Positions 1 to 39,981 of a DNA stretch of 39,981 bases are shown piece by piece. The position numbers were made by a program, and so were the translations under genes. A model generated the notes under the pieces. The model ran no database searches. It was not told the origin of the DNA and saw nothing but the letters and a program-made list of their open reading frames with translations. Location: positions 1 through 39,981 of IMG/VR virus record IMGVR_UViG_3300009506_000093. One strand, 5' to 3'. The number at the start of each line of letters is the position of its first letter. Within the stretch, counting starts at the first letter, position 1. The stretch is from a virus.

Positions 1-27
1 CACCGCGATGTATGCCAGATATTCCAC
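1..27 (-). CDS. possible 5' end of next gene, cut by window edge
   Basis: A GTG at 25-27 opens a frame that runs to the window edge without a stop (Met-Glu-Tyr-Leu-Ala-Tyr-Ile-Ala-Val). A GAAGG Shine-Dalgarno lies about 8 nt upstream, inside the last codons of the gene ending at 30, which matches the close packing elsewhere. Only nine codons are visible, so no function can be given and the gene itself is tentative. Confidence 0.35.
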
Positions 28-29
28 GG

Positions 30-1160
30 CTACACCTTCGGCAGTGTGACTTCGAACGTCGCTTTGCGGCGGCCTTCGGCCTTCGTCCAGCTGGCGCCCT
101 TGACGTACTTCACCCACTTGATCCACGTCGGGAAGTGCTTCACGTCGACCAGATAGACGGCAGCGCCGTTTCGCGTGTACGTGTGTTCCCCGGAATCCGC
201 AATGGGCTTCGTCAGGTTCAGTTCATCAGCCTTCAGCACGATAGACGAATGGACCACCACGTACGCTTCCTGCCCGGTTGCTTCGTATTCCGTGTGGTCT
301 TCCATCGCGGGTTCCTTCACCTTGCGCACCTTGCCGTCGACTTCGACCTTGCGGCCGACAATGACCGGGTCGCCGGAACGGTTCAGCTTCTGTCGCTGTC
401 GTGTCACCTGCGTGAACACTTCGCCGTTCACCAGTGCGATAGGATTTCGGCGCGACAGGGACGACGCGATGTCGTCGAAGTCAATATCCGCCGGGTTCAG
501 TGATTTGAATTGCCATGTTTTCATATCGAATTTGCCTTTGTATTGGTCAGCAAAGCGGGCAAGGGTCTTTGTCCCTGCCCCATACATTGCGGCAAGATGC
601 AGCGCCCTGTCCAGACTTTTTCCCATTTGCCGCGAAGGAACGGTGACGGCGTCCACAATTCGCCGTTCGACTTCCTTCAGGTCTATTTCCATTTTTGGCC
701 CTGCGCGAACATCCACGCGCACGCCTTTCGGAATGCTTGCTTCGTCCAGCACAAACCTGTCGCCGCCGCGCCCATCCATGCCGAATTTGCGCGCGACTTC
801 CATCACCTTTTCCATGGTCAATACGTCGTCGTCCCCGGATTGCTTCAGGCGGCCGGTCACTGTGCCCGCGAAATTGATCCCGTCCCACGGGTTCACCATC
901 ATGTGTTCGGCCATCTTGCGCGACAGTTCTTTGCTTTCCAGCAGCTGCCGCAGTGCGCCGTCGCTGGTAACAGTGGCGCCCTGTACGTCGACCCGTGCAT
1001 GTGCCCCGTGCAGAATATCGCACGCTGGTTCGAAACGAACGATCCGGCCCTTGTACCGCTTGCCGTCAGCGTCGACGAATGTCGGCGTTCCGCGCAGGAA
1101 TGCGCCCCGCACGCGTTCGAATTCCGGGGTTCCAGCTTTGATTTTTACGGTCATGTCCAT
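30..1160 (-). CDS. hypothetical protein, 376 aa
   Basis: I do not recognise this protein. It is a soluble, charged 376-residue protein with no signal peptide or membrane segment. The central part (about 110-190) is rich in acidic and basic residues, and the last 40 residues are Lys/Trp rich. The start at 1160 follows an AGGTG sequence 7 nt upstream; an ATG two codons later is the alternative. It is the largest gene of the left block and lies directly after a 57-residue gene. Codon use is typical of the window: glutamate is always GAA. It could be structural or DNA-associated, but nothing seen decides that. Confidence 0.8.
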   Translation of the reverse strand: MDMTVKIKAGTPEFERVRGAFLRGTPTFVDADGKRYKGRIVRFEPACDILHGAHARVDVQGATVTSDGALRQLLESKELSRKMAEHMMVNPWDGINFAGTVTGRLKQSGDDDVLTMEKVMEVARKFGMDGRGGDRFVLDEASIPKGVRVDVRAGPKMEIDLKEVERRIVDAVTVPSRQMGKSLDRALHLAAMYGAGTKTLARFADQYKGKFDMKTWQFKSLNPADIDFDDIASSLSRRNPIALVNGEVFTQVTRQRQKLNRSGDPVIVGRKVEVDGKVRKVKEPAMEDHTEYEATGQEAYVVVHSSIVLKADELNLTKPIADSGEHTYTRNGAAVYLVDVKHFPTWIKWVKYVKGASWTKAEGRRKATFEVTLPKV

Positions 1161-1164
1161 GGTA

Positions 1165-1338
1165 TCACCTGTGCACTGTGGGCATGTTTACCCGCGCCCG
1201 GTCGCAAAACGCCTGTCCGGCGGCCTTGTCTGCGCGGTCCTGTTCCCGTTTCGTGTCGTGGTGCGCCTTCGACTGAATTGTGTTGCCGTAGTGGCGCGCC
1301 GGTGCGTCGATCAATAAATTTTTCCAGTGTTTATCCAC
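1165..1338 (-). CDS. small hypothetical protein, 57 aa (GTG start)
   Basis: The frame is open further upstream, but I place the start at a GTG at 1336-1338, because AAGGGGAAG lies 5 nt before it and the start overlaps the stop of the SLOG gene by 8 nt. The product is a strongly charged, His/Lys/Arg-rich 57-residue peptide with two internal Ala-Asp-Lys-Ala type helical stretches. No family is recognised. The spacing to the next gene is 4 nt, so it is translated within one operon. Confidence 0.6.
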   Translation of the reverse strand: MDKHWKNLLIDAPARHYGNTIQSKAHHDTKREQDRADKAAGQAFCDRARVNMPTVHR

Positions 1339-7537: not shown

Positions 7538-8251
7538 TCAGTTCCCCCAGTTTTCGCGTACCCACGGGTCGGGCACTTCGTGCGGGTCCGGCTTGCCGTG
7601 GAACACGACCACGCGCGCGTCCTTCGGCAGGCCCTTTCCCCGGCAGTGGTACTTGTAGGACACCACAAACCGGCGTTCGAAATTGGCTATGCTGTCCCGC
7701 AGTATGCGCCAGATCGCGCACTGGTCGCCGTGAAGCTTCGCCATGGCGCGTTCATCGTTCGCTTCGAATGTCCGGAACAGCCTGTGAATGTCCGGGTCCG
7801 TTACGTCGAACAGCATCGCGGACGAATTGTGCGCGCAGTGCGCCTTGTTGGGCGAAAAGTTTTCGACCATGATCAGGGGCTGGTCAGCCACTGCCCGAAC
7901 AATCGGGTCCAGTGAACCGGTCAGGACCACGTCAAGGTCCAGATACAGCGTTTTCCCGCCGGGCATAATTTCCGGGTTGAACATGTTGAACTTTTGCCAC
8001 CATGTGCCCCATTCGTTCATCGGCAGGATTCGCGTCACGCCGTCCGGAACTTCGTCGTCGGTGATGCAAAACATGTCCCAGCGAACTGTCGCGGGCATAC
8101 AGCAGGCCACAGAATCGCGCAGCCGGGCGACATACTTCGGGGAATACTTCGGCCCCCACTTCACGCAAACGACGTTCACGTGGTAGGGCTGCGGCCCCTG
8201 TTCGGCCCAGATCGGCGGGTTAAGGTTCGGCAGCGTCAGGTCCATGATCAT
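7538..8251 (-). CDS. glycosyltransferase, GT8-like
   Basis: A 237-residue putative nucleotide-sugar transferase. The N-terminal strand VNVVCVKWGPKYSPKYV is followed by KTLYLDLDVVLTGSLDPI (about 100-117), the Asp-Leu-Asp metal-binding motif with the hydrophobic strand typical of GT-A family 8 enzymes. Further conserved elements are NSSAMLFDV (about 143-151) and HGDQCAIW (about 175-182), which correspond to the acceptor loop and the D-Q segment of that family. The donor and acceptor are unknown. ATGA overlap with the FkbM gene gives the start at 8251; an ATG at 8245 has the better-spaced GGGG. Confidence 0.75.
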   Translation of the reverse strand: MIMDLTLPNLNPPIWAEQGPQPYHVNVVCVKWGPKYSPKYVARLRDSVACCMPATVRWDMFCITDDEVPDGVTRILPMNEWGTWWQKFNMFNPEIMPGGKTLYLDLDVVLTGSLDPIVRAVADQPLIMVENFSPNKAHCAHNSSAMLFDVTDPDIHRLFRTFEANDERAMAKLHGDQCAIWRILRDSIANFERRFVVSYKYHCRGKGLPKDARVVVFHGKPDPHEVPDPWVRENWGN

Positions 8252-8931
8252 TTCCCCGGGACAAAGATCAGGTCGCGGTGAATCGACGCGTGCAGCTTGT
8301 AGCCCATCACGTCGACCAGCCAGCGTTCGGATGCGCCCACGCGGTGCCCGGTTTCCCGGTCCTGCGGCAGCGCCTTTTCTTCGATCATAATCACGGGCTG
8401 GTTCGTTTCGATCAGTTTCCGCGCACCCTTCAGTGCCTTCAGTTCCAGTCCTTCGATGTCCAGCTGGATCAGGCCCACGGGTCCCACGATGTCGCCAGAC
8501 GCCACCAAATCGTCCAGTCGGTATACGGGGACCTTTTCAGCGCCCGGACTTGGGATGCCTTCCTTCACTTCCTTGATGTAGTAGGCGCCAGCGTTCGAAA
8601 TTTCACTGGGCGGCAGCTTCACTTCGCCGTAGCCCATGTGATCAGACAGCGCGCCACGGATCGGCGTCACGTTCGTGCGGTCTTCCAGATTCGTGGACAG
8701 GCACGCGAAGTTTTCGCGGTCGGGTTCGAACGTGTACACGTGGTGGAATTCTTTCGACATGACCCACGGCCACACGCCCATGGCCCCGCCCGCCTGAATG
8801 GCGACCGATGCGCCCGGTTCTGCGACTGCGTCCATGGCCACGTTCAGGTCGTTAATCCAGCTGTTGACCTGTATCAGTTTCGTGTCTTCCTGATTCCAGC
8901 GCCACGATTTGCCTAAAAATGAAATCATCAT
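8248..8931 (-). CDS. FkbM-family methyltransferase
   Basis: A 227-residue class I SAM methyltransferase. It shows SVAIQAGGAMGVWPWVMSK (SAM-binding loop, about 43-61), HVYTFEPDRENFACL (acidic strand 2 end), and the FkbM signature VGLIQLDIEGLELKALKGA (about 153-171) followed by VIMIEEKA. Known members O-methylate sugars or similar hydroxyls. Between two transferase genes, this fits the building or capping of a glycan. ATGA overlap with the upstream DUF115-like gene fixes the start. Confidence 0.8.
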   Translation of the reverse strand: MMISFLGKSWRWNQEDTKLIQVNSWINDLNVAMDAVAEPGASVAIQAGGAMGVWPWVMSKEFHHVYTFEPDRENFACLSTNLEDRTNVTPIRGALSDHMGYGEVKLPPSEISNAGAYYIKEVKEGIPSPGAEKVPVYRLDDLVASGDIVGPVGLIQLDIEGLELKALKGARKLIETNQPVIMIEEKALPQDRETGHRVGASERWLVDVMGYKLHASIHRDLIFVPGK

Positions 8932-9581
8932 AATATTTCGTCCAGTTCTGCGGTTTCGAAAAAGTCCAGCGCCGAATCCGGCGTGCAGTTGATTATACGC
9001 ACCCCTAGCGCGTCCGTGTCAATGGTCCGGAATACTTTCAGCAGGCCGGTGAATTCGCCGTTCGGCCCCACCTTCGGCCAGTGTTGCAGGGCCTTCGGAT
9101 ATTCGCCGAAATAGTGGCGCCCCTGCCCCGCCTTGTGCTTCGCCCGGTCATAGCCCGGCAGGTAGCGCATGTCGTAGCCGATCAGGATGAAATTCCGGGC
9201 GCCGTAGTGGTAGGCCAAATTCAGGATTTGAAACCCGGACGCATGGCCGTAGTGGATGTAGCCGGGGTCGGTCGAAAAACTGTCGCCCCACTTGCCCGGA
9301 ATGTAGTTGATCCCGTAGCGGTCGGCCGTTGCCTTGTCCCACGTCCACTTGTCAGCCTTCGAATCACGCAGGGCCGCGCTGTCCTTGTAGTGGTCCCACC
9401 ATTCGATGTTGCAGGCCATGTGCACGTCCAGCGGCGTTACCATAACAGCATTGTTCACCCCGAACACCCGGCACTGGTTCTGCTGCCGCGCGTAGCGCAC
9501 GCGTTCCAGCTGTTCGACGGTAAGGGAAGGGCCGGTGCCGATGATCACGGCCGGATAGTCAGCGAAATTTTTGAAGGGCAT
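8928..9581 (-). CDS. DUF115-like putative transferase (paralogue 1)
   Basis: 217 residues beginning with a Rossmann-type strand-loop AVIIGTGPSLTVEQL (about 11-25), then VFGVNNAV and DVHMACNIEWWDHY (about 53-66), and later GFQILNLAYHYGARNFILIGYDM (segments near 120-142). This layout matches DUF115/sialyltransferase-like proteins found in phages and in motility or surface-modification loci. It is clearly paralogous to the next gene (NNA/CNDA, ACNIEWW/ACDFAWW, GYQLINLAYLFG/GFQILNLAYHYG). Its substrate is unknown. Confidence 0.65.
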   Translation of the reverse strand: MPFKNFADYPAVIIGTGPSLTVEQLERVRYARQQNQCRVFGVNNAVMVTPLDVHMACNIEWWDHYKDSAALRDSKADKWTWDKATADRYGINYIPGKWGDSFSTDPGYIHYGHASGFQILNLAYHYGARNFILIGYDMRYLPGYDRAKHKAGQGRHYFGEYPKALQHWPKVGPNGEFTGLLKVFRTIDTDALGVRIINCTPDSALDFFETAELDEIL

Positions 9582-10383
9582 CTGTCAGACTCATTTTAGG
9601 GAACATGTTCAGCGCCGTGTTCGGCGTCGCGTTGACGATTTCAATCCCGTAGTCTTCGGGCTTTATCGTCGCATAATTTTGAACGAATCCGGTGTATCCA
9701 CCGTTCCGCGCCAGTCCTTCAGGATGATCACCGAAAAAATGCTTTTTGTTGTTCACCACGCGCATGTTGTAGCCGCACAAAATAATTCGGTTAATCCCGA
9801 ACAGGTAGGCCAGATTTATAAGCTGGTAGCCGCTGTTGTTTCCGAAATGGATCAGGTCCTGCTTTCTCGACAGTCCCTTTGCCCCGCAGCCTTTGATCCG
9901 CCGCAGGCCCGGGAACTGCGATTGCGGCATGTTCGGTTCCTGCGTCCACATTCCATGCGTGGTTTCGTATTCGCGGATATGTTCGAAGTGTTTCCGCCAC
10001 CATGCGAAATCGCAGGCATAGTGGACGTTCAAGTACGGCGCGATGCGATAGGCGTCATTGCACCCGAACAGGTAAAGTTCCTGCGTCAGCCGGGCGGCCA
10101 TGATTTCGTCCATAACTTCGGGGGTCAGGCCGGGGCCGGTCGCCATCAGGACGGCCGCCTTGCCTTCGAAATCCCGGGGAATGGTTTCCGGCTTGATGGG
10201 GTCCGGCGGTGGGCTGCGCCTGTGCTGTCCGCGAACGCCAGCGGCCTGACGGGGCTGTGCCTTCGCGGGAAGGTCCTTGATCAGGGAAACAGGCCCGGGC
10301 GCCGCAGACGGCCCCAGCTTCGGCCGCAGGTGGCGGTCTTCCGCTGTAGCACGAATATTTTTCAGTCGCTGCAAGCGAATCAA
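9559..10383 (-). CDS. DUF115-like putative transferase (paralogue 2, TTG start)
   Basis: 274 residues. The core from about residue 75 repeats the architecture of the downstream paralogue: VLMATGPGLTPEVMDEIM, LFGCNDAYRIAPYLNVHYACDFAWW, IHFGNNSGYQLINLAYLFG, IILCGYNMRVV. An extra basic, Pro-rich N-terminal extension of about 70 residues is present. The start is a TTG overlapping the polymerase stop (TTGA) with GGAAG upstream. The 23-nt overlap with the next gene and the similarity suggest tandem duplication. Function is probably surface or nucleic-acid modification, inferred from neighbours. Confidence 0.65.
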   Translation of the reverse strand: MIRLQRLKNIRATAEDRHLRPKLGPSAAPGPVSLIKDLPAKAQPRQAAGVRGQHRRSPPPDPIKPETIPRDFEGKAAVLMATGPGLTPEVMDEIMAARLTQELYLFGCNDAYRIAPYLNVHYACDFAWWRKHFEHIREYETTHGMWTQEPNMPQSQFPGLRRIKGCGAKGLSRKQDLIHFGNNSGYQLINLAYLFGINRIILCGYNMRVVNNKKHFFGDHPEGLARNGGYTGFVQNYATIKPEDYGIEIVNATPNTALNMFPKMSLTDALQKFR

Positions 10384-12326
10384 TGTGCTTCCGCCCAGTT
10401 CGCGCCGTGGTCGCTGCTGACCAGCAGGGGAACCCGCAGCTGGTACACGTCTTTCATCATTCTGGCCGCTTCAGCGTGCGCCTGAACGGCTTGCGGGGTT
10501 TGGGGGACCGACCAGTTCAGTTCGTCGTGAACGGTCAGCAGCGGCGGCCCCATGAAGTCACACACGCCAGATTCCCAGATATTGACCATTGCAAGTTTCA
10601 TCAGATCGGCCGCGCTTCCCTGCATTAGTGCGTTCAGGGCTGCGTACCCGAACGCCCGTTTCACGCCATGTTTACCCCACGCCAGCACCGCGTCGTCGTA
10701 CAGCAGCGGGGTCGGCTTGTTGTCCTTGTAATTATACCCGAATTTTCCATAGTCGCGCGGTTCCCACAGATCGAACCGGCGGCGGCGCCCCAGCAGGGTC
10801 ATGATGTAGCCCCGATTTTCGGCCACCCGGGACACATTCCGCATCAGTGCCTTGATGAACGGCAGCCGGGCGTGGTACATCGCAAAAATTTCTTCGGCTT
10901 TTTCGCGGGTTACGCCCAGCTGACGGGCCAGCTTTTCGATGCCCATCCCGTAGCCCAGCCCAAAATTGATATTTTTCGCCGGTTTGCGGTCGATCCCGGT
11001 TATGCTGGCGACGTAGTCGTGGAAATCGGTCGTCGGGTCTTCCCTGTATGCCCGCTGCGTAGCTTCGGCCGACTTTCCGGTGCCGTAGTGGACCAGTTCG
11101 CGGAATTCGATCTGCGACCAGTCGTCGCTGTACCAGACTTCGTCCGGTTCCGGAATAAACATGGACCGCATCAGCGGCCCCAGTTCTTCGTCCCGGGCAG
11201 GGATGTTTTGCAGGTTCGGGTTCGATGAACTGAATCGGCCGGAAACCGTCCCGTTGCTGTCGGTCTTCAGCTGGTGGAATTGCGTATGCACCCGGCCGTC
11301 GACGGCGTTTCCCAGCACCGCCCCCTGAATGAACGTGGTCACGGTCTTGTCATACTTGCGCGCTTCGACCAGCTTCCGCAGTCGCGGGTCTTCGTGCTTT
11401 TCCAGCCACAGCGCCGTGAAGGATGGTTTCTTTGTCTTCGCGGTCAGGGGGTATTCGATGCCGGACCTGTCGCACATTTTCGCGACCTGTTCCGCGTTCC
11501 AAATATCCGGAATGCCGATGTCCTTACAGATTTGAATTTTCCGTGCGGTCAGGTCGTCCGTCGCGCGCTGCGCGTTCGCTTCGTCGACTTTGACGCCACG
11601 GCGCCGCATGGACAGCATCATAGGCATAAGCCGTTTTTCAATGTCCCAGACGCGCCCTAGTTCCTGTTCTTCGATGATCGCCAGCTGTTTGCGAATAATC
11701 TGCTGCGGCAGTGTCACGTCGGCGATTGCATACGGCGCCGCTATTTCCGGCGGGCACCGATAGATATTTTTCCGCTGATCCCGTTCCTTGCCATAGGTCC
11801 GGTTCAGCCAGTCTTCCATGTCGGATTTTTCCTTGCCGATGCCCAGATACTTGAACGACTGCCGGTCCAGCGAAAAACTGTGCTGGTTTTCGTCAATCAG
11901 CGGTTCCGCAATCTGGATGTCGAAATATGGCCCCGGGACCTGCACGCCTTCTTCCCACAGGTAGTCCAGATCGTACAGCAGGTTCGCGCCGATCTTCGGG
12001 ACGCCTTTCAGGCATAGATTCCGCTGTGCCCATGCCATAACGTGTTCGCGCAGGTAGCCGACGCCGTTCGGATTGTATTCAAGGTCGTGCCGTATCGGCA
12101 GGTAAAAGGCTGCGTCTTCGGTGGCCACGGAAATTCCGACGATATAGCCGCCAGTTCGCACGCCGGGTCCCTTTGTCTTCAGGTCCGGATCATACGTTTC
12201 GGTGTCAATGGTCAGTTCTTTGGCCGCTGCCAGATTGAAATCATTCAGCGACTGGAATCGCAGCTTGTTCGTCCACTCCCGATATTTTTCGGGGATTTCC
12301 TGATACCGGGGATGCTTAAACGCCAT
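10380..12326 (-). CDS. DNA polymerase, family A, with 3'-5' exonuclease domain
   Basis: 648 residues, a replicative phage PolA. The exonuclease domain shows DTET (41-44) as Exo I and YAIADV (199-204) as Exo III. The polymerase domain shows motif A in SDDWSQIEFR (400-409), motif B as R447-K451-F455-Y459-G460 in RKPAKNINFGLGYG, and motif C VHDE (599-602). No 5'-nuclease domain is present, as usual for phage enzymes of this size. It overlaps the upstream helicase gene by 11 nt. The single GAG codon (Glu17) is one of very few in the genome. Confidence 0.95.
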   Translation of the reverse strand: MAFKHPRYQEIPEKYREWTNKLRFQSLNDFNLAAAKELTIDTETYDPDLKTKGPGVRTGGYIVGISVATEDAAFYLPIRHDLEYNPNGVGYLREHVMAWAQRNLCLKGVPKIGANLLYDLDYLWEEGVQVPGPYFDIQIAEPLIDENQHSFSLDRQSFKYLGIGKEKSDMEDWLNRTYGKERDQRKNIYRCPPEIAAPYAIADVTLPQQIIRKQLAIIEEQELGRVWDIEKRLMPMMLSMRRRGVKVDEANAQRATDDLTARKIQICKDIGIPDIWNAEQVAKMCDRSGIEYPLTAKTKKPSFTALWLEKHEDPRLRKLVEARKYDKTVTTFIQGAVLGNAVDGRVHTQFHQLKTDSNGTVSGRFSSSNPNLQNIPARDEELGPLMRSMFIPEPDEVWYSDDWSQIEFRELVHYGTGKSAEATQRAYREDPTTDFHDYVASITGIDRKPAKNINFGLGYGMGIEKLARQLGVTREKAEEIFAMYHARLPFIKALMRNVSRVAENRGYIMTLLGRRRRFDLWEPRDYGKFGYNYKDNKPTPLLYDDAVLAWGKHGVKRAFGYAALNALMQGSAADLMKLAMVNIWESGVCDFMGPPLLTVHDELNWSVPQTPQAVQAHAEAARMMKDVYQLRVPLLVSSDHGANWAEAH

Positions 12327-13801: not shown

Positions 13802-13928
13802 CTGGTGTCCCCGGGCACGGCTTGCGCGCCGCCTTCCGGGTCGCCTTGTTCTTCAGCAGGATCAGTCCGCATTTGCGGCAAACTGGCCAGCTGAAAATTT
13901 TAGTCGTCACAAACGTGTGTCGGTGCAT
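13782..13928 (-). CDS. small zinc-ribbon-like protein, 48 aa
   Basis: The peptide reads MHRHTFVTTKIFSWPVC then RKCGLILLKNKATRKA and ends with KPCPGTPDDDERR. A Cys-X2-Cys knuckle followed by a third Cys about 18 residues later suggests a small metal-binding ribbon with one ligand replaced, perhaps by His. The overall pattern is one I associate with short conserved phage ORFs. The start lies 29 nt inside the preceding gene. Function is unknown. Confidence 0.55.
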   Translation of the reverse strand: MHRHTFVTTKIFSWPVCRKCGLILLKNKATRKAARKPCPGTPDDDERR

Positions 13929-15290: not shown

Positions 15291-15484
15291 TGCGCGTCCC
15301 CCCGTCGTAGAATGTACCGAACGCAGCGAACCGGGCACTTGCACCGGCCGCCGCCACCGTCGCAGATTTCGATTGCCAGTGCGCGGGCTTTCTGCGGTTC
15401 TGTTATTCGGTCTTCATTGATCCACACGTGCGTTTCAGTATTGAACGGCGCGTGGTAGTGATAAATTGGCAGGCGTTCAGTCAT
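15287..15484 (-). CDS. small Cys-containing hypothetical protein, 65 aa
   Basis: A 65-residue protein with a Gly-rich turn and a Cys cluster (Cys-Asp-Gly4-Arg-Cys-Lys-Cys-Pro-Val-Arg-Cys) at residues 41-54, suggestive of a small metal site. It is ATGA-coupled on both sides, between the Mom-like gene and the GT8-like gene, so it may be an accessory component of that set. No family is recognised. Confidence 0.6.
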   Translation of the reverse strand: MTERLPIYHYHAPFNTETHVWINEDRITEPQKARALAIEICDGGGGRCKCPVRCVRYILRRGDAQ

Positions 15485-22641: not shown

Positions 22642-22652
22642 GGGGGTTCGTT

Positions 22653-25978: not shown

Positions 25979-27549
25979 CAGAATTCCATGCGTTCGTCGA
26001 CTTGCGGCACCGCGCTTTCCGGGTCTTTCGTCACGAAGTCTTCCGGAACCAGCCAGTAGTTCAGCTTTTTGTTGCCGGTAGTGGTCGTTTCTTTCTTTTC
26101 GACGCCCAGATTGTGCAGCTGCTGCCACAGCCCGCTGGCAGTCGTGTTCGGGAACCGCTGCTGCTGAAGATATTTCGAAAAAGCTTCGAAATGGAACAGG
26201 AATTTGTTGTTTTCGAAAAGTACCATTCCGGTCAGTATATCACGCCGCGACTTTGCTTCGGGCGCCGTTTCGATGAAGTCCTTCAGCATAGTGCCCAGAC
26301 TGGCGGTCGACGTGTATTCATACGGGATTTCGATCACTTCCCGATTCACAAGCCAGTGCTGAATCATCTGGTCCCACATTGCATTGTTCATTCGCGGCGG
26401 CATCTTGTCCAGAACTTCAAAAACCTTTTCGCGGAATTTCACATTATTGGTCAGTTCAGCCCGCTGAAACTTCACGTCCTGCCCGTTTATCGACATGATG
26501 TACTGCGGCGGTTCGTCAGTAACGACAGCCCCGGCAGCGTTCACCTGCACGATCTTTCGGACGCCTTCAATGTTCCAGTCTTCCCAGACCTGAACTAGAC
26601 CGCCCATAACTCCGAATTCACGGGTCTGGCATAGTGGTTTGTTGCAGACTTCCATGCAGACCGCATCCTTGCACAGATAGCCGTACTCCCGGTCTGTATC
26701 CAGTGACTTGAAGATGGTCGCAGTGATTTCGCGCATGGGCAAGGCCGGGCTGAAGTAGTCGCCGTTCCACTCTATGACCTTGTCCTGCCATTCGTCGGGG
26801 TATTTTTTCTTTGCGTATATGGCGAACTGGAACAGTGCTTTGTTCCGCCCGCCTTCGCCGACGCCATTGTGCGCCATGGTCTGAATGCACGGCGGCCCGT
26901 CACTGAATGGAATTTCCTGCTGGTGAATTTCCAGCTTGTCGAAATCGGCGGGACTGATCCGCTTGCTTTCCGCGTAGTCCAAGAATTTTTCGAAATCAGC
27001 AATCGGCTTTCCCGCGTCGTCGAATGCGTACCGCTGCGTCATTTCGGCGTCGAAGTACGGGAGGTTTATCCAGTTCCCGACTTCACCGTTCGCGGCGTCT
27101 AGCTTTTCCTGTTTCGGGAAGATTTCGATTTTCGGGTATCCCAGCATCCTAGCCAGTTCGCCCAGCTTCGCGCGAATTTTCGCTGCGTTCGCCGGTTCCG
27201 AAAAGAAAATGTAAAGGTGGGCGCCGCCAGACTTTGACTTTGCCCAGACGATAGGGAACCCGGACCGCTTTGCATCGGTCACGAATCGTTTCACTGTGGG
27301 TTCATCGTACACGTCGAAATCAATCGCTGCGAATTCGCACGTGCCGTCGTCGTGGATCGGAACTACGCCCAGACCAGATTTGCCCGTCAGGTGGGCTTCC
27401 CATTTTTCGGTCGTTACAGGTTCGGCGACTGTTTGCGCGCGACCGCCGATCTTTCCGGACTCTTTTTGCAGGTTCCGGTCTTCCCGGTATATACCATGCG
27501 CGCGCGTCAGGCCGCTAAACAGCCGACTGAATCGTTCTATCTTGTCCAT
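25978..27549 (-). CDS. archaeo-eukaryotic primase (AEP) superfamily protein, TOTE-type
   Basis: 523 residues. The AEP catalytic core is visible: CEFAAIDFDVYDE (about 71-83) gives the metal-binding Asp77-x-Asp79 pair, KSKSGGAHLYIFF (about 104-116) gives the S-x-H motif, and IEIFPKQEKL (about 141-150) the following conserved strand seen in TOTE-type primases. Farther on, HNGVGEGGRNKALFQFAIYA matches the PriCT-like helical segment. A Cys-containing region (CKDAVCMEVCNKPLCQ, about 293-308) may bind zinc or Fe-S. The C-terminal third is uncharacterised. It is TGATG-coupled to the UvrD-like helicase, forming a primase-helicase pair. Confidence 0.85.
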   Translation of the reverse strand: MDKIERFSRLFSGLTRAHGIYREDRNLQKESGKIGGRAQTVAEPVTTEKWEAHLTGKSGLGVVPIHDDGTCEFAAIDFDVYDEPTVKRFVTDAKRSGFPIVWAKSKSGGAHLYIFFSEPANAAKIRAKLGELARMLGYPKIEIFPKQEKLDAANGEVGNWINLPYFDAEMTQRYAFDDAGKPIADFEKFLDYAESKRISPADFDKLEIHQQEIPFSDGPPCIQTMAHNGVGEGGRNKALFQFAIYAKKKYPDEWQDKVIEWNGDYFSPALPMREITATIFKSLDTDREYGYLCKDAVCMEVCNKPLCQTREFGVMGGLVQVWEDWNIEGVRKIVQVNAAGAVVTDEPPQYIMSINGQDVKFQRAELTNNVKFREKVFEVLDKMPPRMNNAMWDQMIQHWLVNREVIEIPYEYTSTASLGTMLKDFIETAPEAKSRRDILTGMVLFENNKFLFHFEAFSKYLQQQRFPNTTASGLWQQLHNLGVEKKETTTTGNKKLNYWLVPEDFVTKDPESAVPQVDERMEF

Positions 27550-32009: not shown

Positions 32010-32534
32010 TTAGGGCCACAGGTTATACAGATTTGCAGCTGATTCTGTCAGGTCTTCGATTGTACCACGATTCTGCACGATGTAATCGCAGTACCCGGGG
32101 TCCACGCCAGCTTCGGACGCGTGCCCGGCGTTGTCCATGGCCTGCGGGTCCGGGCGTTCCACGCGGACGATCACGCCGCCGTGTTCCCTGATCCACCGGG
32201 CTTCGTTGTCAAAACGGGCGTCTGGGATGATCAGGTTCGCGTGCTTCAGCACCGCCTGTTCGGCCAGTAACAGCCACAGGTCCGGGTGCACCTTTTCGCG
32301 GCCCCATTCGGTGCCCAGCGTCTGCGCCAGATAGCGCGGCGACTTTCCCAGCCACGGAATCGGGGCTTCCTTCGCTTCCCGGTCGTCCCATACGGACGGG
32401 TCCAGATCAAACGCAAGTTCGATCATTCGCTTGATCGGGTCAGCGAACGAATGCCGCGCATAGCCCCTATCGGTGAAAAATTTCGCAAAAGTGTCTTTAC
32501 CTGCCCCGGCTTTGCCAGTTACGCCAACTAACAT
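32010..32534 (-). CDS. deoxynucleoside monophosphate kinase
   Basis: 174 residues with Walker A GKAGAGKDTF at 7-16, then HSFADPIKRMIELAFDLDPS and APIPWLGKSPRYLAQTLGTEWGR (segments about 60-82), a conserved pattern of phage dNMP kinases. LIIPDARFDNEARWIREHGG (about 100-119) gives the acidic strand and helix. It phosphorylates dNMPs to dNDPs for phage DNA synthesis. The P-loop next to Met1 requires the start at 32534, which overlaps the HslV-like gene by 38 nt. Its place in the lysis cluster rather than in the replication block is unusual. Confidence 0.85.
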   Translation of the reverse strand: MLVGVTGKAGAGKDTFAKFFTDRGYARHSFADPIKRMIELAFDLDPSVWDDREAKEAPIPWLGKSPRYLAQTLGTEWGREKVHPDLWLLLAEQAVLKHANLIIPDARFDNEARWIREHGGVIVRVERPDPQAMDNAGHASEAGVDPGYCDYIVQNRGTIEDLTESAANLYNLWP

Positions 32535-32985
32535 ATTTTCGCACCCTTTCGTCTTTGTTTAGATTGATCACCGTCAGGCCGTTGCCGGTCCCGGTGTCGT
32601 GCTTGGCCGCTATCTCTACAGCGCGGACCGCGTCCACGCCAGCTTCCATCGCGCCCAGTGCAAAGTCGGCCCCGCTGCCCCACGCTTCGAACTTGTCGAA
32701 TACAGGCATCGGAACCATGTTGCTATCGTAGGCGGTGACCTTCCCCGTGACAAGGTTCAGCACCACCGCTTCAGAATCTTCGTCTAACGACCAGTCGTCG
32801 TCCTTGTTGCTGCCGTTCTTCAGCCATTCACAGAACCGGATACCGGCGGACAGCGACCCGGTGATTGCCACTGCGTAGTCAGTGCCACGCACGCGCCACA
32901 GTTTTTCGCATAGCTTGCGCGCGCCCCCCGCTGTTGCCTGCCTGTCGGTGCACAGGACCCCGTCTTTCCACGCGACTGTTGTCAT
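32497..32985 (-). CDS. HslV/20S-proteasome-like Ntn hydrolase
   Basis: 162 residues. After removal of Met1 the N-terminus is Thr-Thr-Val, matching the nucleophile Thr1 of HslV and proteasome beta subunits. Asp13 in CTDRQAT corresponds to HslV Asp17, and Lys27 in CEKLWRV to Lys33. Further matches are AVAITGSLSAG (about 38-48) and AWGSGADFALGAMEAG (about 100-115), the family's G-S-G-x-x-A-L-A-A helix, and the C-terminal GTGNGLTVINL strand. It could form an oligomeric peptidase or a self-compartmentalised hydrolase; no HslU-like ATPase is seen in the window. Confidence 0.78.
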   Translation of the reverse strand: MTTVAWKDGVLCTDRQATAGGARKLCEKLWRVRGTDYAVAITGSLSAGIRFCEWLKNGSNKDDDWSLDEDSEAVVLNLVTGKVTAYDSNMVPMPVFDKFEAWGSGADFALGAMEAGVDAVRAVEIAAKHDTGTGNGLTVINLNKDERVRKYVSWRNWQSRGR

Positions 32986-34523
32986 CGCCGCCAGCGCCCC
33001 CCGATAATATGCAGCAGGGTTCGCTTGCCGTTCGCGTAAATCACTGCGTCGGAATGCAGCCAGTTCGACGGCCCCCGGTTGTACTGGACCCGCAGGCGAC
33101 TGTTCGTGCCGACCTGCATACAGCCTTCTTCGGTGCCCGGGCCATGGCCGTGGCCGATTATACTTTTGACGCCGATCCGCCGCAGGTTCATGATGCTTCC
33201 CCGGGACCCGTTCGGACCCAGATCGCCGTGCATCCCGGTTTCGATGCCCAGCACCATCAGGGATTCGTCCCGCTTCAGCAGGACTTTATTCACGGTCAGC
33301 AGGCGTTCGGCCCAGTAGTGGAACGGGTCGACCGTCCGGGCGCCCGCGTCGGTCATTTCCGTGTTCCGGACCATTTCCAGCGCGGTTTCCAGATAAAATT
33401 CCATGTGCGACGGGTCCTTTCGCCAGTCGGTTTCCCGAATCCAGCGTTCCAGACCTTCGTTGTGGTTACTGGGGACCATCACGTTTTCGAACCCTGCGCC
33501 GTGCTTGTTCACGAACGCGCAGGTCAGTTCCAGTTCCTTCGGGATGCTGGCCATGCCTGCACGGTGCTTCGCCAGCTTTATAAACGGGTTGTCGCGGTCG
33601 TGATGGTTCTGCGAATAGTGGTCGTACACGTCGTGCCAGATCAGCTTTTTCGGCTTCAGAACGGCCGTGATTGATCCCGGGCCGTTGAATGTAGCCTTGA
33701 CCACGTCCGGGTCGATGAACTGCACGTGGGAATCGCCCATGATCAGGGCGGCGGCGGGCGGTGCATCTTCGACCCCGTCCGGCGTGTACTTTTTGTCCAG
33801 ATCAATGAACGTCCCGTTTTGCAGGGCGGAAATCTGGCGCATAAAGAACATGTCGCCGTCGACTTCGACCACCACCGCCCCGATAGTGTGGTGGAATTCG
33901 CCGCGCTTGCCGGTCGCCGTATCGGTGTAATTTTCCACCGTAACAGCACCGGTCGTCGTCATGATTTTGGGAAGCTTGCTTTGCGGGGTCGCAATCGACT
34001 TCAGCTGGACTTTCGGGTGCGGCAGGATGCCGGACTTGTCGCCGGTGATCGCTTCGAACCCGGTCAGGGGCTGCGTGTTCGTCGGCTGCGTGCGGATGTC
34101 ACCCAGCAGGATCAGGTTCCGGTTAATGTCGGCTCGGCTGGAAAACAGGTATTCGTGCAGTTCAGGCGCCCACCAGTCGTCGTCCTGCTGCTTCTGGCCC
34201 CAGACGCTTGTCGGGTTCTTGTACCGTATCGGCACGACCACCAGCTGCGCGCCGTTGTGGGCACAGTAGTTTTCCAGTGTAGCAAGGAATTTTTTATGTA
34301 CTGGCGTCGCGTTCTGGGCGGCGGTGAAAACGTAGCGTTCGGCGGGCGGCAGTTTGCCTTCGTATTGTCGGTGGGTCGGTTCCTTGACAGGCTTCGCTTT
34401 CGACGGGTTCGCGGTCGTTTTGCCGCAGGATTTGCAGCGCCATCGGTTCTGGCGCCCCGTTTTGCGTTCCCGCCACCCATCCTTGACTAGCTTCCCCTGT
34501 TCACCGCAGTGCGGACAATACAT
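32982..34523 (-). CDS. metallophosphoesterase-like protein with N-terminal zinc ribbon
   Basis: 513 residues. Cys3/Cys6 (CPHC) and Cys30/Cys33 (CKSC) form a zinc ribbon like that of IS1-type DNA-binding proteins. From about 255 a calcineurin-like phosphoesterase is suggested by MGDSH (262-266), Asp298/Asp301 in HDVYDHYS, SNHNE (352-356), His432 in GMHGDLGPNG and GHGHGP (457-462). These are the usual five metal-ligand blocks. Phage T5 A1 is the closest analogue I can recall, with low certainty. Substrate could be DNA, RNA or a nucleotide. ATGA overlap with the HslV-like gene; AAAGGGG upstream. Confidence 0.65.
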   Translation of the reverse strand: MYCPHCGEQGKLVKDGWRERKTGRQNRWRCKSCGKTTANPSKAKPVKEPTHRQYEGKLPPAERYVFTAAQNATPVHKKFLATLENYCAHNGAQLVVVPIRYKNPTSVWGQKQQDDDWWAPELHEYLFSSRADINRNLILLGDIRTQPTNTQPLTGFEAITGDKSGILPHPKVQLKSIATPQSKLPKIMTTTGAVTVENYTDTATGKRGEFHHTIGAVVVEVDGDMFFMRQISALQNGTFIDLDKKYTPDGVEDAPPAAALIMGDSHVQFIDPDVVKATFNGPGSITAVLKPKKLIWHDVYDHYSQNHHDRDNPFIKLAKHRAGMASIPKELELTCAFVNKHGAGFENVMVPSNHNEGLERWIRETDWRKDPSHMEFYLETALEMVRNTEMTDAGARTVDPFHYWAERLLTVNKVLLKRDESLMVLGIETGMHGDLGPNGSRGSIMNLRRIGVKSIIGHGHGPGTEEGCMQVGTNSRLRVQYNRGPSNWLHSDAVIYANGKRTLLHIIGGRWRR

Positions 34524-35677: not shown

Positions 35678-38600
35678 TTATTCAGCCGTCGGAACGGTGC
35701 TTGTGAATGGTTCCATAACGCCCCACGCGTACAGTTCGCCGGTGGTGGTGTCTTGTATCCTGAAAAAGATCGGTCGACCCACCCGGTGAAAATGCAGGAT
35801 ATTTACGTGGTGCCCAGCCCAGTTCGACGGGCTGCCGTTCTGCAAATTGTTGAAAATATATTGCGAATCTGGGGACGACAGGGAATAGTCGTGCACCAGC
35901 TGCGCAGGGGACCCATCATCGGACAGAATAAATAGCTTGCCCTGATCACCTGACCCCGTGCCTTCGTCGAACTGTGCGCCTACCGCGAACTTCAGTGTCA
36001 GGTTCGGGATCACCTGCGGACTTCCGGGCGAACCGGCCTTGAACACTTCAATGCCCGGCGACACGACTGTGCCGTACGGGATGCGACCCAAATATTTGTC
36101 TGGGGCATAGTCGGCGTCACTTACTAGCTGGAATTCATGAATGCACGCGTCGCGCGATTCCTGCCCCGGGCTGGTCAGGCGATGTTTCGCTAATATTTCG
36201 ATGCGAAGCTGGGCGCCATTAGGCTGTAGAACCATCGCCATTAGATCATTAGGCGGAATGTTCTTGAGATAGTTGGTCGGATCATCGGCCGGGGTTTCAT
36301 ATTCATAGATGAAATTCGGGCTGCCGATGTTCGGGCTTGAAATGTCGTACATGCGGATTATATAGGACAATCCGTCGCCTGCGTCGGTGGTGCCGGGATT
36401 GAACGTGGTCCCGTCGCTGTTTTCACCCTTCACAGATTTTTGCGCGCCTAGTGTCCGCCAGTTCCGGCGTGTCCATGACACCTGCATATAGGACGACGTG
36501 GCGTACAGCGGCACCGATTTATTGTATCTACTGCTGCCTATTGTAATTTCATTCGGGCATAGCGGCGCGTTTACACGAAAGCCGTCATGGATTCGTGTCA
36601 CGTTCGTGATGGTGGCCGATCCCACGCCCAGCGCCCCGCTTTCCTGCGTCGACGGGCATATTTTCGCGGCCACGTAGAAGTTGTTCGTAAATTGTTCGGA
36701 CGAAATGCTGGCGCCGCCAAAAGATACGAACCAGACCAGCGAACCAGCGGGCCAGTCCTGCACGCGGGAATCAAGGGCGCCGCGCCAGCAATCGAACAGC
36801 CTAATGCCGGTAACTAGCGGGGACCCACCGACGCTTTCTACTGCCTGCGTGTACAGTATGAATTCACCAAAATCGCGCAGTTGATCCGGTGAATTCACAG
36901 TGGGCGGCGTTATGTATACCAGTGACAGCAGGTCGTCAATTTCACTTTCCGATAAGGCGTCCGCGTCGATCAAATCAGCCAGTGATTCACCGGGAAGCGG
37001 GTCCACATCATAATCGCCAGCCCCCTGCGTCGCGACGCTTCCGCTTAACGGGCCGGGCAAGGCTGACCGCAGCTGCCCCACCAGAACGAAGTTCGGATTC
37101 GTGCCGTTGTTTATGAATGTGCCAGTGATCGCACCGGACGCCGACGTTGCTTCATGCGTGTAAAGGTCGTATTCGTCGCCAGCGCCACCGGTAAGACGCG
37201 GCAAGGCTGTGATGCGCGGCGTTTTGTCCGGATTGTCCGGGTCTTGCAGCTGCATCAGTCGCGGCGTTTCGAATATCACTTGGTCTTCCGGGTCTTCGGC
37301 AGTAACTGTCTGCGTCGGTGCCGACCAGCTGCTGTCGATAGGGTCGTGGAAACTGGCCGCCTGCGTGGTGAACACGTCTTCAACTGCGTCGATGGTGATT
37401 TTGTTATTCAGTAGTTCGCCGTAATTGACGCGCGTCGCGCGCATCAGCAGGTCGGTGATGCCGTACAAGTCCCACGACAGCAGGAACAGGTCGCCCGGCT
37501 TGATGGTGTACAGTTCGCGGTTCACTGTCAGGGTAGCTTTCGCCAGCGGCGTGGCCAGATTGCGCAGGTCCCGCCATGCGATGTAATTCGCAAGCGCGGC
37601 GTTCTTGACGCCCATAAAATTTTCGGTAACAGTGATGGGCGCGCCCTGAATGATTTTGTTCGCCATGTCCTGCGCCAGCCCGTAGCTTGTCGCGTAGTTC
37701 TTGCCGGGGTCAGCGTACTGAACCCGAACAATGTTTTTCGTTTCGGACCACGATCCACGGCTGAATTCGACTTTCTTGCAGTTGGTTTCGTCGATTGACA
37801 GCAAAGACGACAGCGGGCTGGGAATATCCGCTTCGCGGATCAGTTTGAACGTGTACTGGCCGGTCGTGATGTCGCGCTGAAGAACGCCGTCGCACTGCCG
37901 TTCGATTTCCTGAATGATCTGTTCAGTTTTTTTCGGGTTATCCAGCAGCGCGGAAAATCCGTTTCCTTCCGCCGCCAGCGTAGCGCCCACAGCGGCCAGT
38001 GTCGTGGTGTCGATGTCGCCAGTCGACCGGGCCAGACCCCATTCGGTGTTCGTCAGGATTTCATACAGGACGTTCATCGGGTTCGCGTCAAAGTTATTTA
38101 TCAGCGCATCAGCGCCCAACGATAGGCCGTCGGGAATGCGGCGAACCACGAACTTGAACGGACGCAGCGACGGACTGTTGCCGATGTAAATTTGTTCCGC
38201 TACAAGGTACGCCGTCCCGCGATATGCGGGCAGGATGTCAGGGGAAAACGTCACGGCCCCTTCCAGATAGGTGCTTTTCACCTGCGTGCTACTGCCGGGA
38301 AACATGGTAAACGTGCCACTGATTCCGCCACTGTCCTGACCGAACAGGGTCGGTTCGTTGACTGTCACTGACCCGCTTGCGACCGCTGACAATGGGGACG
38401 TATCGTAAATAGATTCGTCGTCGACAAGAATTTGCATCAGGCCGTCGTCGGCGCCAGTCATCGGACCACGGCAAAACGCGAACTGAATCCCGACGTAGTA
38501 TTTATAGCCGACCGTGACTTTCTTCGATGAAAACATGCCGGTTTTGATCTTTTCGCGAATGCGTTCCGTGCGCAGATCACCGTACCAGATAATATTCGGC

Positions 38601-38773
38601 GCCGACAGCTGGACCGTTCCCCACAGTAGTGGGACCACGCGCCCTTCAGTGGCGGTCGGAAAATTGAAATCGCCCAGTCCTGACGGCCGGGCGTTTTCGA
38701 CTTCGGGTTTCGGTGCGAACAGTTCGGAAAGAATGAACGACGCGACCCAGATCGCTAGATATACCCAAAACAT
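35678..38773 (-). CDS. J-like tail-tip / host-specificity protein
   Basis: 1031 residues. The N-terminus starts with a hydrophobic stretch (FWVYLAIWVASFILSELFAP) and then the conserved block of large tail-tip proteins (FPTATEGRVVPLLWGTVQLS, VTVGYKYYVGIQFAFCRGP, about 50-108). It continues through the fibre-type middle (VLYEILTNTEWGLARSTGDI, KTEQIIQEIERQCDGVLQRD) to a variable Gly/Ser/Asn-rich C-terminal third, which is expected to carry receptor binding. By position and features it is the central fibre hub of a siphovirus tail (Phage-tail_3 type). It follows the gpL-like gene by 2 nt. Confidence 0.85.
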   Translation of the reverse strand: MFWVYLAIWVASFILSELFAPKPEVENARPSGLGDFNFPTATEGRVVPLLWGTVQLSAPNIIWYGDLRTERIREKIKTGMFSSKKVTVGYKYYVGIQFAFCRGPMTGADDGLMQILVDDESIYDTSPLSAVASGSVTVNEPTLFGQDSGGISGTFTMFPGSSTQVKSTYLEGAVTFSPDILPAYRGTAYLVAEQIYIGNSPSLRPFKFVVRRIPDGLSLGADALINNFDANPMNVLYEILTNTEWGLARSTGDIDTTTLAAVGATLAAEGNGFSALLDNPKKTEQIIQEIERQCDGVLQRDITTGQYTFKLIREADIPSPLSSLLSIDETNCKKVEFSRGSWSETKNIVRVQYADPGKNYATSYGLAQDMANKIIQGAPITVTENFMGVKNAALANYIAWRDLRNLATPLAKATLTVNRELYTIKPGDLFLLSWDLYGITDLLMRATRVNYGELLNNKITIDAVEDVFTTQAASFHDPIDSSWSAPTQTVTAEDPEDQVIFETPRLMQLQDPDNPDKTPRITALPRLTGGAGDEYDLYTHEATSASGAITGTFINNGTNPNFVLVGQLRSALPGPLSGSVATQGAGDYDVDPLPGESLADLIDADALSESEIDDLLSLVYITPPTVNSPDQLRDFGEFILYTQAVESVGGSPLVTGIRLFDCWRGALDSRVQDWPAGSLVWFVSFGGASISSEQFTNNFYVAAKICPSTQESGALGVGSATITNVTRIHDGFRVNAPLCPNEITIGSSRYNKSVPLYATSSYMQVSWTRRNWRTLGAQKSVKGENSDGTTFNPGTTDAGDGLSYIIRMYDISSPNIGSPNFIYEYETPADDPTNYLKNIPPNDLMAMVLQPNGAQLRIEILAKHRLTSPGQESRDACIHEFQLVSDADYAPDKYLGRIPYGTVVSPGIEVFKAGSPGSPQVIPNLTLKFAVGAQFDEGTGSGDQGKLFILSDDGSPAQLVHDYSLSSPDSQYIFNNLQNGSPSNWAGHHVNILHFHRVGRPIFFRIQDTTTGELYAWGVMEPFTSTVPTAE

Positions 38774-38775
38774 TT

Positions 38776-39597
38776 TTATTCCTTCGTCAGCTGTTGTTTG
38801 TTGAACGGGTTAATCGACGGCACGAACGGAAACCCGCCATAATTTAGCACATTATTGAACTTCTGCGCGCAGGTAGTCACGGAATGATCGCACCCCTGAT
38901 ACGCGTACAGGGTGCCACCAGACACGTTTTGCTTGAACGGGTACAGGATGCGAACCTGCGTCCCTGACTGGTCGATGATCAAGCGCGATTCCGATCCGTC
39001 CGGCAGCGAAACATACCCACCGATGAACGGGGACCCGGTAGTTGGCAGCGCCTGAATGGTCAGCAACACGTCATCGGTTACGCCTAGCACCTTTCCGCTG
39101 TGCAGGTAGGACCCTTCAGACAGGCCGCAGCCGCTGTCGTACAGAATATGGTTGCACAACCCCTGAAAACTGAACCGTGGCATTTCCCGGGTGAACAGTT
39201 CGTTGTTCGGTATGCACCGCAATTCGCAGATTTCGTCCTTGAATGCGACACTGGCCACGTATCCCGCGAACATGATAATCGACGCGGTGGCCGGGACCGA
39301 ATTCGGCTGGATGCGGTACACGGTCACGTTCATGATGTACGACGGTTGCACGGCGATGAAGTTCGTCGCAATTACGTCGTCGGTGGGAATCTTGATGGTG
39401 ATCGAAGTCGACTTTTGTTCCTTCGCTTCCTGATATGCCGTGCGCTTTATGGCCACCGGCGTGTAGTCGACACCGCTGTATGTCACGGTCCCTTCGGAAC
39501 TGGTCCGACGGTAGGTCGTCCCCGAAATCTGGAATTCGTACAGTTCAATCGGGCGCGAATCTTCTATGCTGACTTCAAGCTGGTCTAAGGTACTCAT
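38776..39597 (-). CDS. gpL-like tail-tip hub protein with [4Fe-4S] ligands
   Basis: 273 residues. N-terminal beta domain (RPIELYEFQISGTTYRRTS and following) is the DUF2163/GTA hub type; the C-terminal part ends with the BR0599-like GCDHSVTTCAQKFNNVLNYG and a GGFPFVPS tail. Four Cys (148, 157, 236, 243) have spacings 9 and 7, identical to the four ligands of the [4Fe-4S] cluster of lambda gpL as I recall them. It should sit between the distal tail and the J-like fibre. ATGA overlap with the upstream gene fixes the start. Confidence 0.85.
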   Translation of the reverse strand: MSTLDQLEVSIEDSRPIELYEFQISGTTYRRTSSEGTVTYSGVDYTPVAIKRTAYQEAKEQKSTSITIKIPTDDVIATNFIAVQPSYIMNVTVYRIQPNSVPATASIIMFAGYVASVAFKDEICELRCIPNNELFTREMPRFSFQGLCNHILYDSGCGLSEGSYLHSGKVLGVTDDVLLTIQALPTTGSPFIGGYVSLPDGSESRLIIDQSGTQVRILYPFKQNVSGGTLYAYQGCDHSVTTCAQKFNNVLNYGGFPFVPSINPFNKQQLTKE

Positions 39598-39981
39598 ACG
39601 TCATACGCCCCGCTAACCGGTACATTTATTTCGCTGTCGATCTGGTCGCCCATTAGATCGGTCCATTTATGTAACAGGTCCACGGTATCGCTGTCAAATC
39701 GCGACTTGATCATGAACTGAATCGACAGGACGTTTGCGGCGGTGAAGTCCATCGGAAAGGTCGGCGAAACAGACAGCCGTTCCACATCGGTGGATACTTC
39801 AGTGCTGGAAACGATGTCTAAAAACATGTAAGTCTGACCGTCTTCCCAGTTGTGCGGACTGCCAATAGGAAACGGGCTGGCGACCGACGGCATGTTGTTC
39901 GGGTCAAACTGTATCACGATGGTGGTGTACGGTTCGCGCGACTTCATGAACTGCGTGTACCCGACGTTTGTCACGTCTATG
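39594..39981 (-). CDS. tail protein, 5' end outside window
   Basis: At least 126 residues are visible from a GTG at 39974, but the frame is open to the window edge, so the true start may lie beyond it. The product is beta-rich (YTTIVIQFDPNN, MFLDIVSSTEVSTDVERLSV, FTAANVLSIQFMIKS) with an acidic, Val-Pro-rich end. From its place directly before the gpL-like hub it is probably a gpM-type or DUF2460-type minor tail protein at the tail tip; the sequence alone does not settle which. Confidence 0.6.
   Translation of the reverse strand, partial: IDVTNVGYTQFMKSREPYTTIVIQFDPNNMPSVASPFPIGSPHNWEDGQTYMFLDIVSSTEVSTDVERLSVSPTFPMDFTAANVLSIQFMIKSRFDSDTVDLLHKWTDLMGDQIDSEINVPVSGAYDV

Follow-up and report, generated by a model that had tools for sequence, protein, structure and literature searches.

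GAG/CTC content of the window

The 39,981-bp stretch of viral DNA analysed here (positions 1 to 39,981 of IMG/VR record IMGVR_UViG_3300009506_000093; the whole stretch is called the window) carries genes for, among others, a family-A DNA polymerase, a primase, a Mom-type DNA modification protein, a protein resembling A1 of phage T5 and part of a presumptive tail-gene block, and it is almost free of the trinucleotide GAG and its complement CTC. The window is identical to positions 22693-62673 (100%, 39,981/39,981 bases) of a parent contig, IMGVR_UViG_3300010413_000025 (67,191 bp), which we label G001. The purged stretch and the sites that survive in it are as follows.

1-39981, no strand assigned: stretch purged of GAG/CTC (counts, simulations, frames on the 67-kb parent contig)
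2026, 3321, 17070, 23284, 27061, 31965, 36266: residual GAG
3168, 5474, 9590, 9866, 12276, 17213, 17385, 19106, 19524, 22547: residual CTC, first part
22741, 23405, 23866, 24294, 26610, 26686, 26770, 27460, 27617, 27749: residual CTC, second part
28272, 29449, 29884, 31541, 32614, 34133, 34570, 35111, 39593: residual CTC, third part

The + strand of the window holds 7 GAG and 29 CTC (36 in all). Base composition predicts 528 and 887 copies, and dinucleotide composition 427 and 531, so that the observed-to-expected ratios (O/E) are 0.013 and 0.033 by the former measure and 0.016 and 0.055 by the latter. The next-lowest of the 64 trinucleotides is CAA (0.41) when dinucleotides are taken into account and CTA (0.20) when mononucleotides are used, and the minimum reached in 200 first-order simulations of the window was 348 GAG and 470 CTC. 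G001 as a whole includes 73 GAG/CTC sites against 1,688 expected (O/E 0.043). GAG/CTC is its sole trinucleotide pair under 0.6, with AAG/CTT at 1.17, and no 2-kb bin holds more than 6 sites (0-6, where about 50 would be the average expectation), the lowest bins lying at approximately 20-40 kb. The original prediction, a near-complete exclusion of GAG/CTC, is thus confirmed in a stronger form than was claimed, and the ratios for both window and parent contig lie below the value of 0.3 that had been set beforehand as the limit of the claim. Its tallies by eye were somewhat low: about 30 sites had been estimated on the + strand, and while the four sites named in the first 16 kb all exist, seven are present there (2026, 3168, 3321, 5474, 9590, 9866 and 12276).

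The word is purged from double-stranded DNA

Genes in G001 were called with a home-made caller. Ninety-three of the 95 called genes share one strand, and both senses of the word are purged from all frames. Since an RNA-level effect would spare one sense, this arrangement rejects it. When synonymous codons were shuffled in 83 G001 genes, GAG across codon junctions was found 5 times (126 expected) in frame 1 and 11 times (158 expected) in frame 2, and CTC 3 times in each (98 and 222 expected). Within codons, GAG encodes 26 of 1,135 glutamates and CTC 7 of 1,502 leucines, beside 631 AAG among 1,060 lysine codons, which together with the codon-preserving shuffle bears out the earlier statement that this is not a codon-ending bias. 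Intergenic DNA is purged as well, with 4 GAG (106 expected) and 9 CTC (169 expected). G002, a relative used as control, has ratios of 0.86-1.34 in the four junction classes and the expected number of sites between genes. An RNA-level or codon-level cause is ruled out by the loss of both senses, in all frames and between genes.

The purge is essentially strand-symmetric. Sense GAG stands at 0.06 and sense CTC at 0.02 in G001, and both at 0.06 in its close relative G004. Among partial avoiders, sense GAG is retained somewhat more than sense CTC in G006 (0.40/0.22), G008 (0.39/0.29) and G007 (0.52/0.30), and the order is reversed in G010 (0.24/0.31).

Alignment of G002 with G001 shows what replaced the lost sites. 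Where G002 has GAG in frame 0, the G001 counterpart is GAA at 71 of 148 sites, and in frame 1 it is GCG (10) or GGG (8) among 46 sites; CTC in G002 is matched by CTG at 51 of 91 frame-0 sites and by CGC at 18 of 50 frame-1 sites. For comparison, in the non-avoiding pair G011 and G009, GAG is retained at 47 of 114 frame-0 sites. Each frame frees a different base and all frames are purged alike, hence one hypermutable or misread base cannot explain the loss, and that candidate is ruled out by these frame-dependent replacements. The word was removed at each site via whichever substitution was cheap. It is therefore almost certain that natural selection purged the GAG/CTC word from double-stranded DNA. 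Selection at this level, acting on a 3-bp word, had been proposed earlier and is borne out.

Context and arrangement of surviving sites

In G001 the depletion extends to every one of the 16 flanking contexts (0.01-0.14). GAGT is the best retained, accounting for 43 of the 73 residual sites, and the survivors include 50 GAGNR and 23 GAGNY. G012, a partial avoider, retains CGAG (0.16-0.37) better than the other three contexts (0.03-0.24). Neighbouring sites of opposite orientation are about as frequent as the shuffle mean in G001 (27 vs 24.9) and G004 (35 vs 36.5). They are slightly fewer in G012 (172 vs 187, standard deviation (s.d.) 9.8) and G010 (50 vs 59.9, s.d. 5.7), and fewer in the non-avoider G002 too (1075 vs 1165, s.d. 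22.5). Type III-like restriction acting on two head-to-head sites is unsupported, as neighbour orientation is not clearly ordered. Retention of residual sites as Shine-Dalgarno sequences is also a weak explanation, with 7 of 57 residual sense GAG preceding a called start by 3-15 bp.

Graded avoidance among relatives

Relatives, most of which are represented by contigs that are fragments, were found with the following gene, among others.

10380-12326, minus strand: family-A DNA polymerase (Pfam PF00476, E 3.5e-64), used to find relatives

Relatives are graded in GAG O/E, from near-total avoidance (0.05-0.06) through intermediate values (0.14-0.6) to little or none (0.64-0.97); the selection is thus not equally strong in all related lineages. 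A capsid search yielded 32 loci, and a maximum-likelihood tree was built from 30 capsid rows. Among these loci GAG is at 0.05-0.06 in G001, L057, L058 (the same contig as G004) and L060, at 0.27-0.69 in a second set and at 0.64-0.93 in the remainder, so that the values of the weakest avoiders run into the ordinary ones. One clade of the capsid tree unites the strong avoiders with L059 (0.27) and with a sister group of milder values (0.43-0.69), and another holds avoiders at 0.28-0.32. Each group requires 2 label changes on the tree, which is compatible with two gains or with one gain and losses. G019 (0.50) is a doubtful third independent case, as it lies at the bottom of the range of its own capsid group (0.47 versus 0.58-1.02 in the other 79 loci).

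A second search used a gene that we take, by its motif, to encode the large terminase, and returned 80 loci, of which 78 had not been found before. Among 107 partly overlapping loci of at least 8 kb, GAG falls below 0.35 in six, and all six came from this terminase search: L206 (G001), L207 (G004), L208 (G003), L209, L217 (G010) and L219 (G012).

Across 210 partly overlapping loci of at least 8 kb, counted without AAA, AAT, TAA and ATA, the strongest trinucleotide outliers are GAG/CTC in the window's family (z to -20). The runner-up is GCC/GGC in L349 (z -13.8, O/E 0.46), where GGCC is at 0.11 of expectation. L349 (IMGVR_UViG_3300042731_000746) carries an A1-like gene, shares 11 G001 proteins and avoids GCC/GGC instead of GAG; a methyltransferase motif was not found in its 13 kb. 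Another A1 carrier, L403 (IMGVR_UViG_3300021090_000214), has AGG at 0.28 and GGA at 0.33 of mononucleotide expectation, and GAGG at 0.06.

Phages outside the family

We also counted 27 phage records, most of them on about 40 kb rather than whole. Among the A1-carrying phages fetched, the Rhodobacter capsulatus phage RcCronus (NC_042049) has GAG as its lowest trinucleotide, at 0.35. Its junction sites include 23 GAG (117 expected) and 41 CTC (223 expected), and CTC makes up 18 of its 808 leucine codons. GAGG is tolerated in RcCronus (0.50), but GAGC (0.07) and GAGA (0.09) are not.

Loss of other words was seen in several of these records. The 4-bp palindrome CCGG is lost completely or nearly so in JeffCo (L032/L033), Riggi (L036/L037) and KASIA (L320/L321), and GATC, GGCC and GCGC are lost or nearly lost in LP-114 (L046/L047). 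In the pieces fetched, CCGG occurs 0 times in JeffCo (247 expected), CCGG, CGCG and GGCC occur 0, 0 and 2 times in Riggi (81, 44 and 108 expected), and GGCC and GCGC 0 times each in LP-114 (55 and 48 expected).

The A1-like gene and its surroundings

32982-34523, minus strand: T5 A1-like protein, 513 amino acids (PHROG_1745 'DNA transfer protein', E 1.3e-148)
32010-32534, minus strand: gene near the A1-like gene, 174 amino acids, 36% identity to RcCronus 22555-23094, also near A1 there; the product is presumably dNMP (deoxynucleoside monophosphate)-kinase-like

The C-terminal half of the A1-like protein (residues ~254-512) has a predicted metallophosphoesterase fold (model predicted local distance difference test score, pLDDT, 88.8). 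Residues of metal-binding type are conserved in the T5 A1 family (D264, H266, D298, N353, H354, H458 and H460 in G001 numbering). VIA-align placed the model close to the exonuclease subunit DP1 of PolD (6t8h_A, Z 13.1, 3.3 Å over 201 residues) and to Mre11 (3tho_B, Z 12.0), and also to the non-nucleases LpxH (Z 12.3) and Vps29 (Z 11.1). Foldseek alone returned nothing below E 0.001 for this model, the best rows being Vps29, and a sequence search of solved structures with the A1 alignment gave no match at E up to 1. In phi17:2 (L307) and BL47 (L311), genes annotated as DNA methylases flank the A1-like gene on one side and on both sides, respectively; this arrangement might reflect a pairing of A1 with a modification partner.

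Mom-type gene and methyltransferase motifs

15481-16212, minus strand: Mom-type DNA modification protein (start = ATG at 16212; Pfam PF25680 Mom, PHROG_1384)
16209-17213, minus strand: protein with a DGQHR sequence (PHROG_5931, function unassigned, E 6.7e-22)

The Mom assignment is well above the Pfam cut-off (PF25680, E 2.2e-18, 67.1 bits versus 27.1, with 15481-16299 as the query) and agrees with PHROG_1384 (E 3.8e-25). The Mom gene overlaps the stop of the DGQHR gene by about 4 bp, and the two form a possible modification unit. We take the DGQHR protein to be ParB/DUF262-like; Pfam GmrSD_N matches it at E 0.09, which is below significance, and no match at E 1e-3 was found in the contigs of 15 relatives. 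Regular-expression searches found no [NDS]PP[YFW] or 5-methylcytosine methyltransferase motif in proteins of at least 120 amino acids from 11 family contigs.

Tail block, replication genes and other genes of the window

35678-39597, minus strand: two genes (35678-38773 and 38776-39597) of a five-gene block that extends past the window
25978-27549, minus strand: archaeo-eukaryotic-type primase (AEP-TOTE, E 3.7e-19; PHROG_21866 primase, E 6.5e-93)

Five neighbouring G001 genes (58370-66242), which we take to be tail genes, have counterparts in each of the long avoiders, G004 and G012, and in no contig among the four non-avoiders compared (G002, G014, G009 and G011). They are the only such genes among the 95 called in G001. 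An RcCronus gene with a minor-tail annotation matches the product of 38776-39597 at 26%. In partial contigs, all five are matched in the avoider L347 (31-52%), two in L348 (29-30%) and one in L349 (27%). The block may signal a shared host range.

A gene cluster around the DNA polymerase (7538-10383 and 13900-15344), several members of which are also found in G002 and G012, presumably encodes glycosyltransferases, an FkbM-type methyltransferase and MptE-like proteins; matches under Pfam cut-offs are Glyco_transf_8 (E 0.002) and MptE-like (E 5e-7). PADLOC matched 10 proteins of the window; most of these matches were to generic helicases and primases, and 1331-1753 gave a weak one to ShosA/PsyrA (E 3e-4).

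Search for hosts

Among cellular genomes, the closest matches to the capsid gene (51-52% identity) are found in two Pseudomonas, in Bowmanella and in a metagenome-assembled genome of the Pseudomonadaceae. GAG is at 0.69-0.73 in these four bacterial loci, whose genomes are at most candidate hosts. A DNA query of half the window against 369 genomes of the class to which the Bowmanella genome G024 belongs gave 9 matches, none of them with CRISPR (clustered regularly interspaced short palindromic repeats)-like repeats.

Possible causes of the avoidance

Tentatively, we favour the explanation that the natural hosts of these phages commonly possess a defence that attacks DNA in a sequence-specific manner, recognising GAG, whichever way it is oriented, when it is unmodified. 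Such a defence would damage phage DNA with a low probability per site, and its agent could be a restriction or nicking enzyme, a phosphorothioate-type system or other. The phages would escape by being without sites, a route suggested by the lack of DNA-methyltransferase motifs in the family contigs searched. The survival of 73 sites in G001 and the graded ratios of the relatives suggest that the cost of a site is small and roughly additive, and not lethal in an all-or-none manner. The five-gene block shared by avoiders would fit a shared host range and thus a host defence, and the avoidance of GCC/GGC by L349 would fit different host systems. Several points weigh against a host defence. The capsid and 369-genome searches identified no host and no GAG-reading defence gene was seen there; a host enzyme with a 3-bp target would need to protect very many sites in its own chromosome; and avoidance follows phage phylogeny across samples, which a phage-encoded cause fits equally. 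RcRudolph, recorded on the same strain as RcCronus (R. capsulatus YW1), has GAG at 0.91 versus 0.35, and GAG is mildly low in many phages, ranking last of the trinucleotides in 11 of 95 comparison loci. Finally, the apparent absence of a methyltransferase comes from motif searching, and the window does encode a generic S-adenosylmethionine-dependent methyltransferase domain (23880-24404, Methyltransf_23, E 8e-8).

Alternatively, the agent may be made by the phage. In this less probable view, the main rival, host DNA would be broken up by a nuclease or nickase specific for GAG, the phage's own genome being spared by its near-lack of GAG. A three-base target suits the shredding of a chromosome and hardly suits a host restriction enzyme. 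The candidate for such a self-sparing nuclease would be the A1-like metallophosphoesterase (32982-34523), given its family match and the resemblance of its predicted fold to Mre11 and to the exonuclease subunit DP1 of PolD (Z 12-13). T5 A1 is described as essential to host DNA degradation in the available part of PMC13250531. Six of the eight A1-bearing family contigs have GAG at or below 0.31 (G001, G004, L299, L300, L301 and L347), a seventh being L349 with its different word, and the long non-avoiders G002 and G014 (>60 kb) are without A1. Outside the family, the unrelated RcCronus has A1 and avoids GAG, and GAG is the lowest trinucleotide in XacN1 (0.64) and CM1 (0.62), whose A1 proteins are 44% and 48% identical. 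However, no A1 match was obtained for G012 (64 kb), an avoider at 0.27, L348 (A1 57% identical, 10 G001 proteins shared) is at 0.76, and the A1 carriers T5 and RcRudolph are at 0.97 (40 kb counted) and 0.91. In the A1 tree RcCronus joins RcRudolph, apart from the A1 of the window. The metallophosphoesterase fold is common to non-nucleases, LpxH and Vps29 among them, and RcCronus is recorded as temperate in the part of PMC8601537 available, which speaks against a shredding nuclease. In a wider sample, 69 A1 loci of at least 8 kb (L347 onward; L299-L301 and L346 left out) have a median of 0.85 with 1 below 0.5, and 95 comparison loci of at least 8 kb, partly overlapping, not screened for A1 status and counted without L206-L219, have a median of 0.86 with 1 below 0.5 (p 0.29); GAG is the lowest trinucleotide in 5 of the 69. 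The presence of A1 as such is neither necessary nor sufficient for avoidance. The A1-like gene as sole cause is weakened by this sample and is kept as a rival, and a change of specificity or a recent loss could rescue the idea. Of the phage nickase named among the original candidates, what stands is that the A1-like protein is a possible one. It is also conceivable, if doubtful, that these phages carry their own GAG-reading nuclease or nickase and that the purged genome serves as a mark of self replacing a protective methylase. Were this so, the A1-like protein would again be the candidate, and members of its family might, with similarly low probability, read different words (GAG here, GGC/GCC in L349).

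Three further explanations are improbable to differing degrees. An internal constraint, by which a stray GAG would disturb replication, packaging, transcription or primase signalling, seems rather unlikely. It agrees with avoidance tracking the phage lineage and with the phage having its own polymerase and primase, but homologous polymerases are found in the non-avoiders G009, G014 and G002 (48-52% identity) and a homologous primase in the non-avoider G002 (36%); moreover, the whole genome is depleted and the orientation of neighbouring sites is near random. CRISPR pressure, with GAG as the protospacer adjacent motif (PAM) of the hosts' system, each GAG a possible target and PAMs therefore lost, is a little less credible still. 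PAMs are short and non-palindromic, they are read on both strands and every further copy increases the risk, which fits both the symmetry and the gradation. In the excerpts available, GAG is listed among the interference-competent type I-E PAMs together with AAG, ATG and AGG (PMC4246573), and PAM depletion in phages is reported (PMC4246573, PMC12174588). Within this known PAM set, nevertheless, GAG alone falls below 0.6 in G001, AAG/CTT being in slight excess, and the excerpts of these two articles hold no depletion near O/E 0.04. Single mutations also let phages escape CRISPR, and the nine loci matched in the 369 genomes were free of CRISPR-like repeats. Last, the phage's own Mom-type modification, or a modified base, might make GAG costly or mutable; this is very improbable. 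The Mom gene lies in the window, and the target of Mu Mom, which we take to be S-A-S-N-Y, includes GAG. Against it, GAG is at 0.80-1.11 in each of 12 further Mom phages, a sample from 138 listed records, even though it is still the lowest trinucleotide of one of them, JeffCo (0.80). Mom was not found in G002 or in the records, mostly fragments, of 20 further relatives, including the avoider G012. Frames that allow no synonymous change of the A are purged as much as the frame that allows one, and the excess of GAGNR over GAGNY among survivors is the opposite of S-A-S-N-Y protection. Mom as the cause is rejected on the sample of Mom phages, the relatives' records and the frame argument; the earlier suggestion of a phage modification enzyme finds no support in this correlation.

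A host defence reading GAG remains the explanation that we prefer. About 1,700 expected copies of a 3-bp word have been cut to 73 in 67 kb, in a genome whose proteins can still be aligned to those of relatives, which implies that an enzyme or system with an unusually short target is encountered at nearly every infection. The graded relatives and the cultured RcCronus make the cause testable, and short-word counts in phage genomes may reveal DNA-targeting systems from sequence alone.

Comparison with known systems

Among the matches listed from open-licence PubMed Central articles, the portions available include no report of trinucleotide or GAG avoidance in phages. The PAM depletion described in the excerpts of PMC4246573 and PMC12174588 likewise concerns a short, non-palindromic word, affects both strands and is quantitative; here, the main type I-E PAM, AAG, is kept and the loss is near-total. 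With the T5 A1 family (PHROG_1745) the window shares an A1-like gene, as do seven more family contigs, and differs in that T5 itself keeps GAG. A Pfam Mom-family protein links the window to phage Mu, whereas the sampled Mom phages keep GAG.

Three-base targets are also those of the virus-encoded Chlorella-virus nickases Nt.CviPII (CCD) and Nt.CviQII (RAG). The viruses that encode them shield themselves by methylation. The case described here differs in that AAG is not avoided, and a GAG-reading enzyme here is putative.

Phages are known for losing restriction sites of 4-6 bp, and the purging of a short word is shared with JeffCo, Riggi and LP-114. As in avoidance of restriction or defence sites, the loss extends to both strands, to all frames and to the DNA between genes, and the word, not one base, is under selection. 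The target here is a 3-bp non-palindromic word, in contrast to the 4-bp palindromes lost there, and 73 of 1,688 expected sites survive, so that an all-or-none cost is unlikely.

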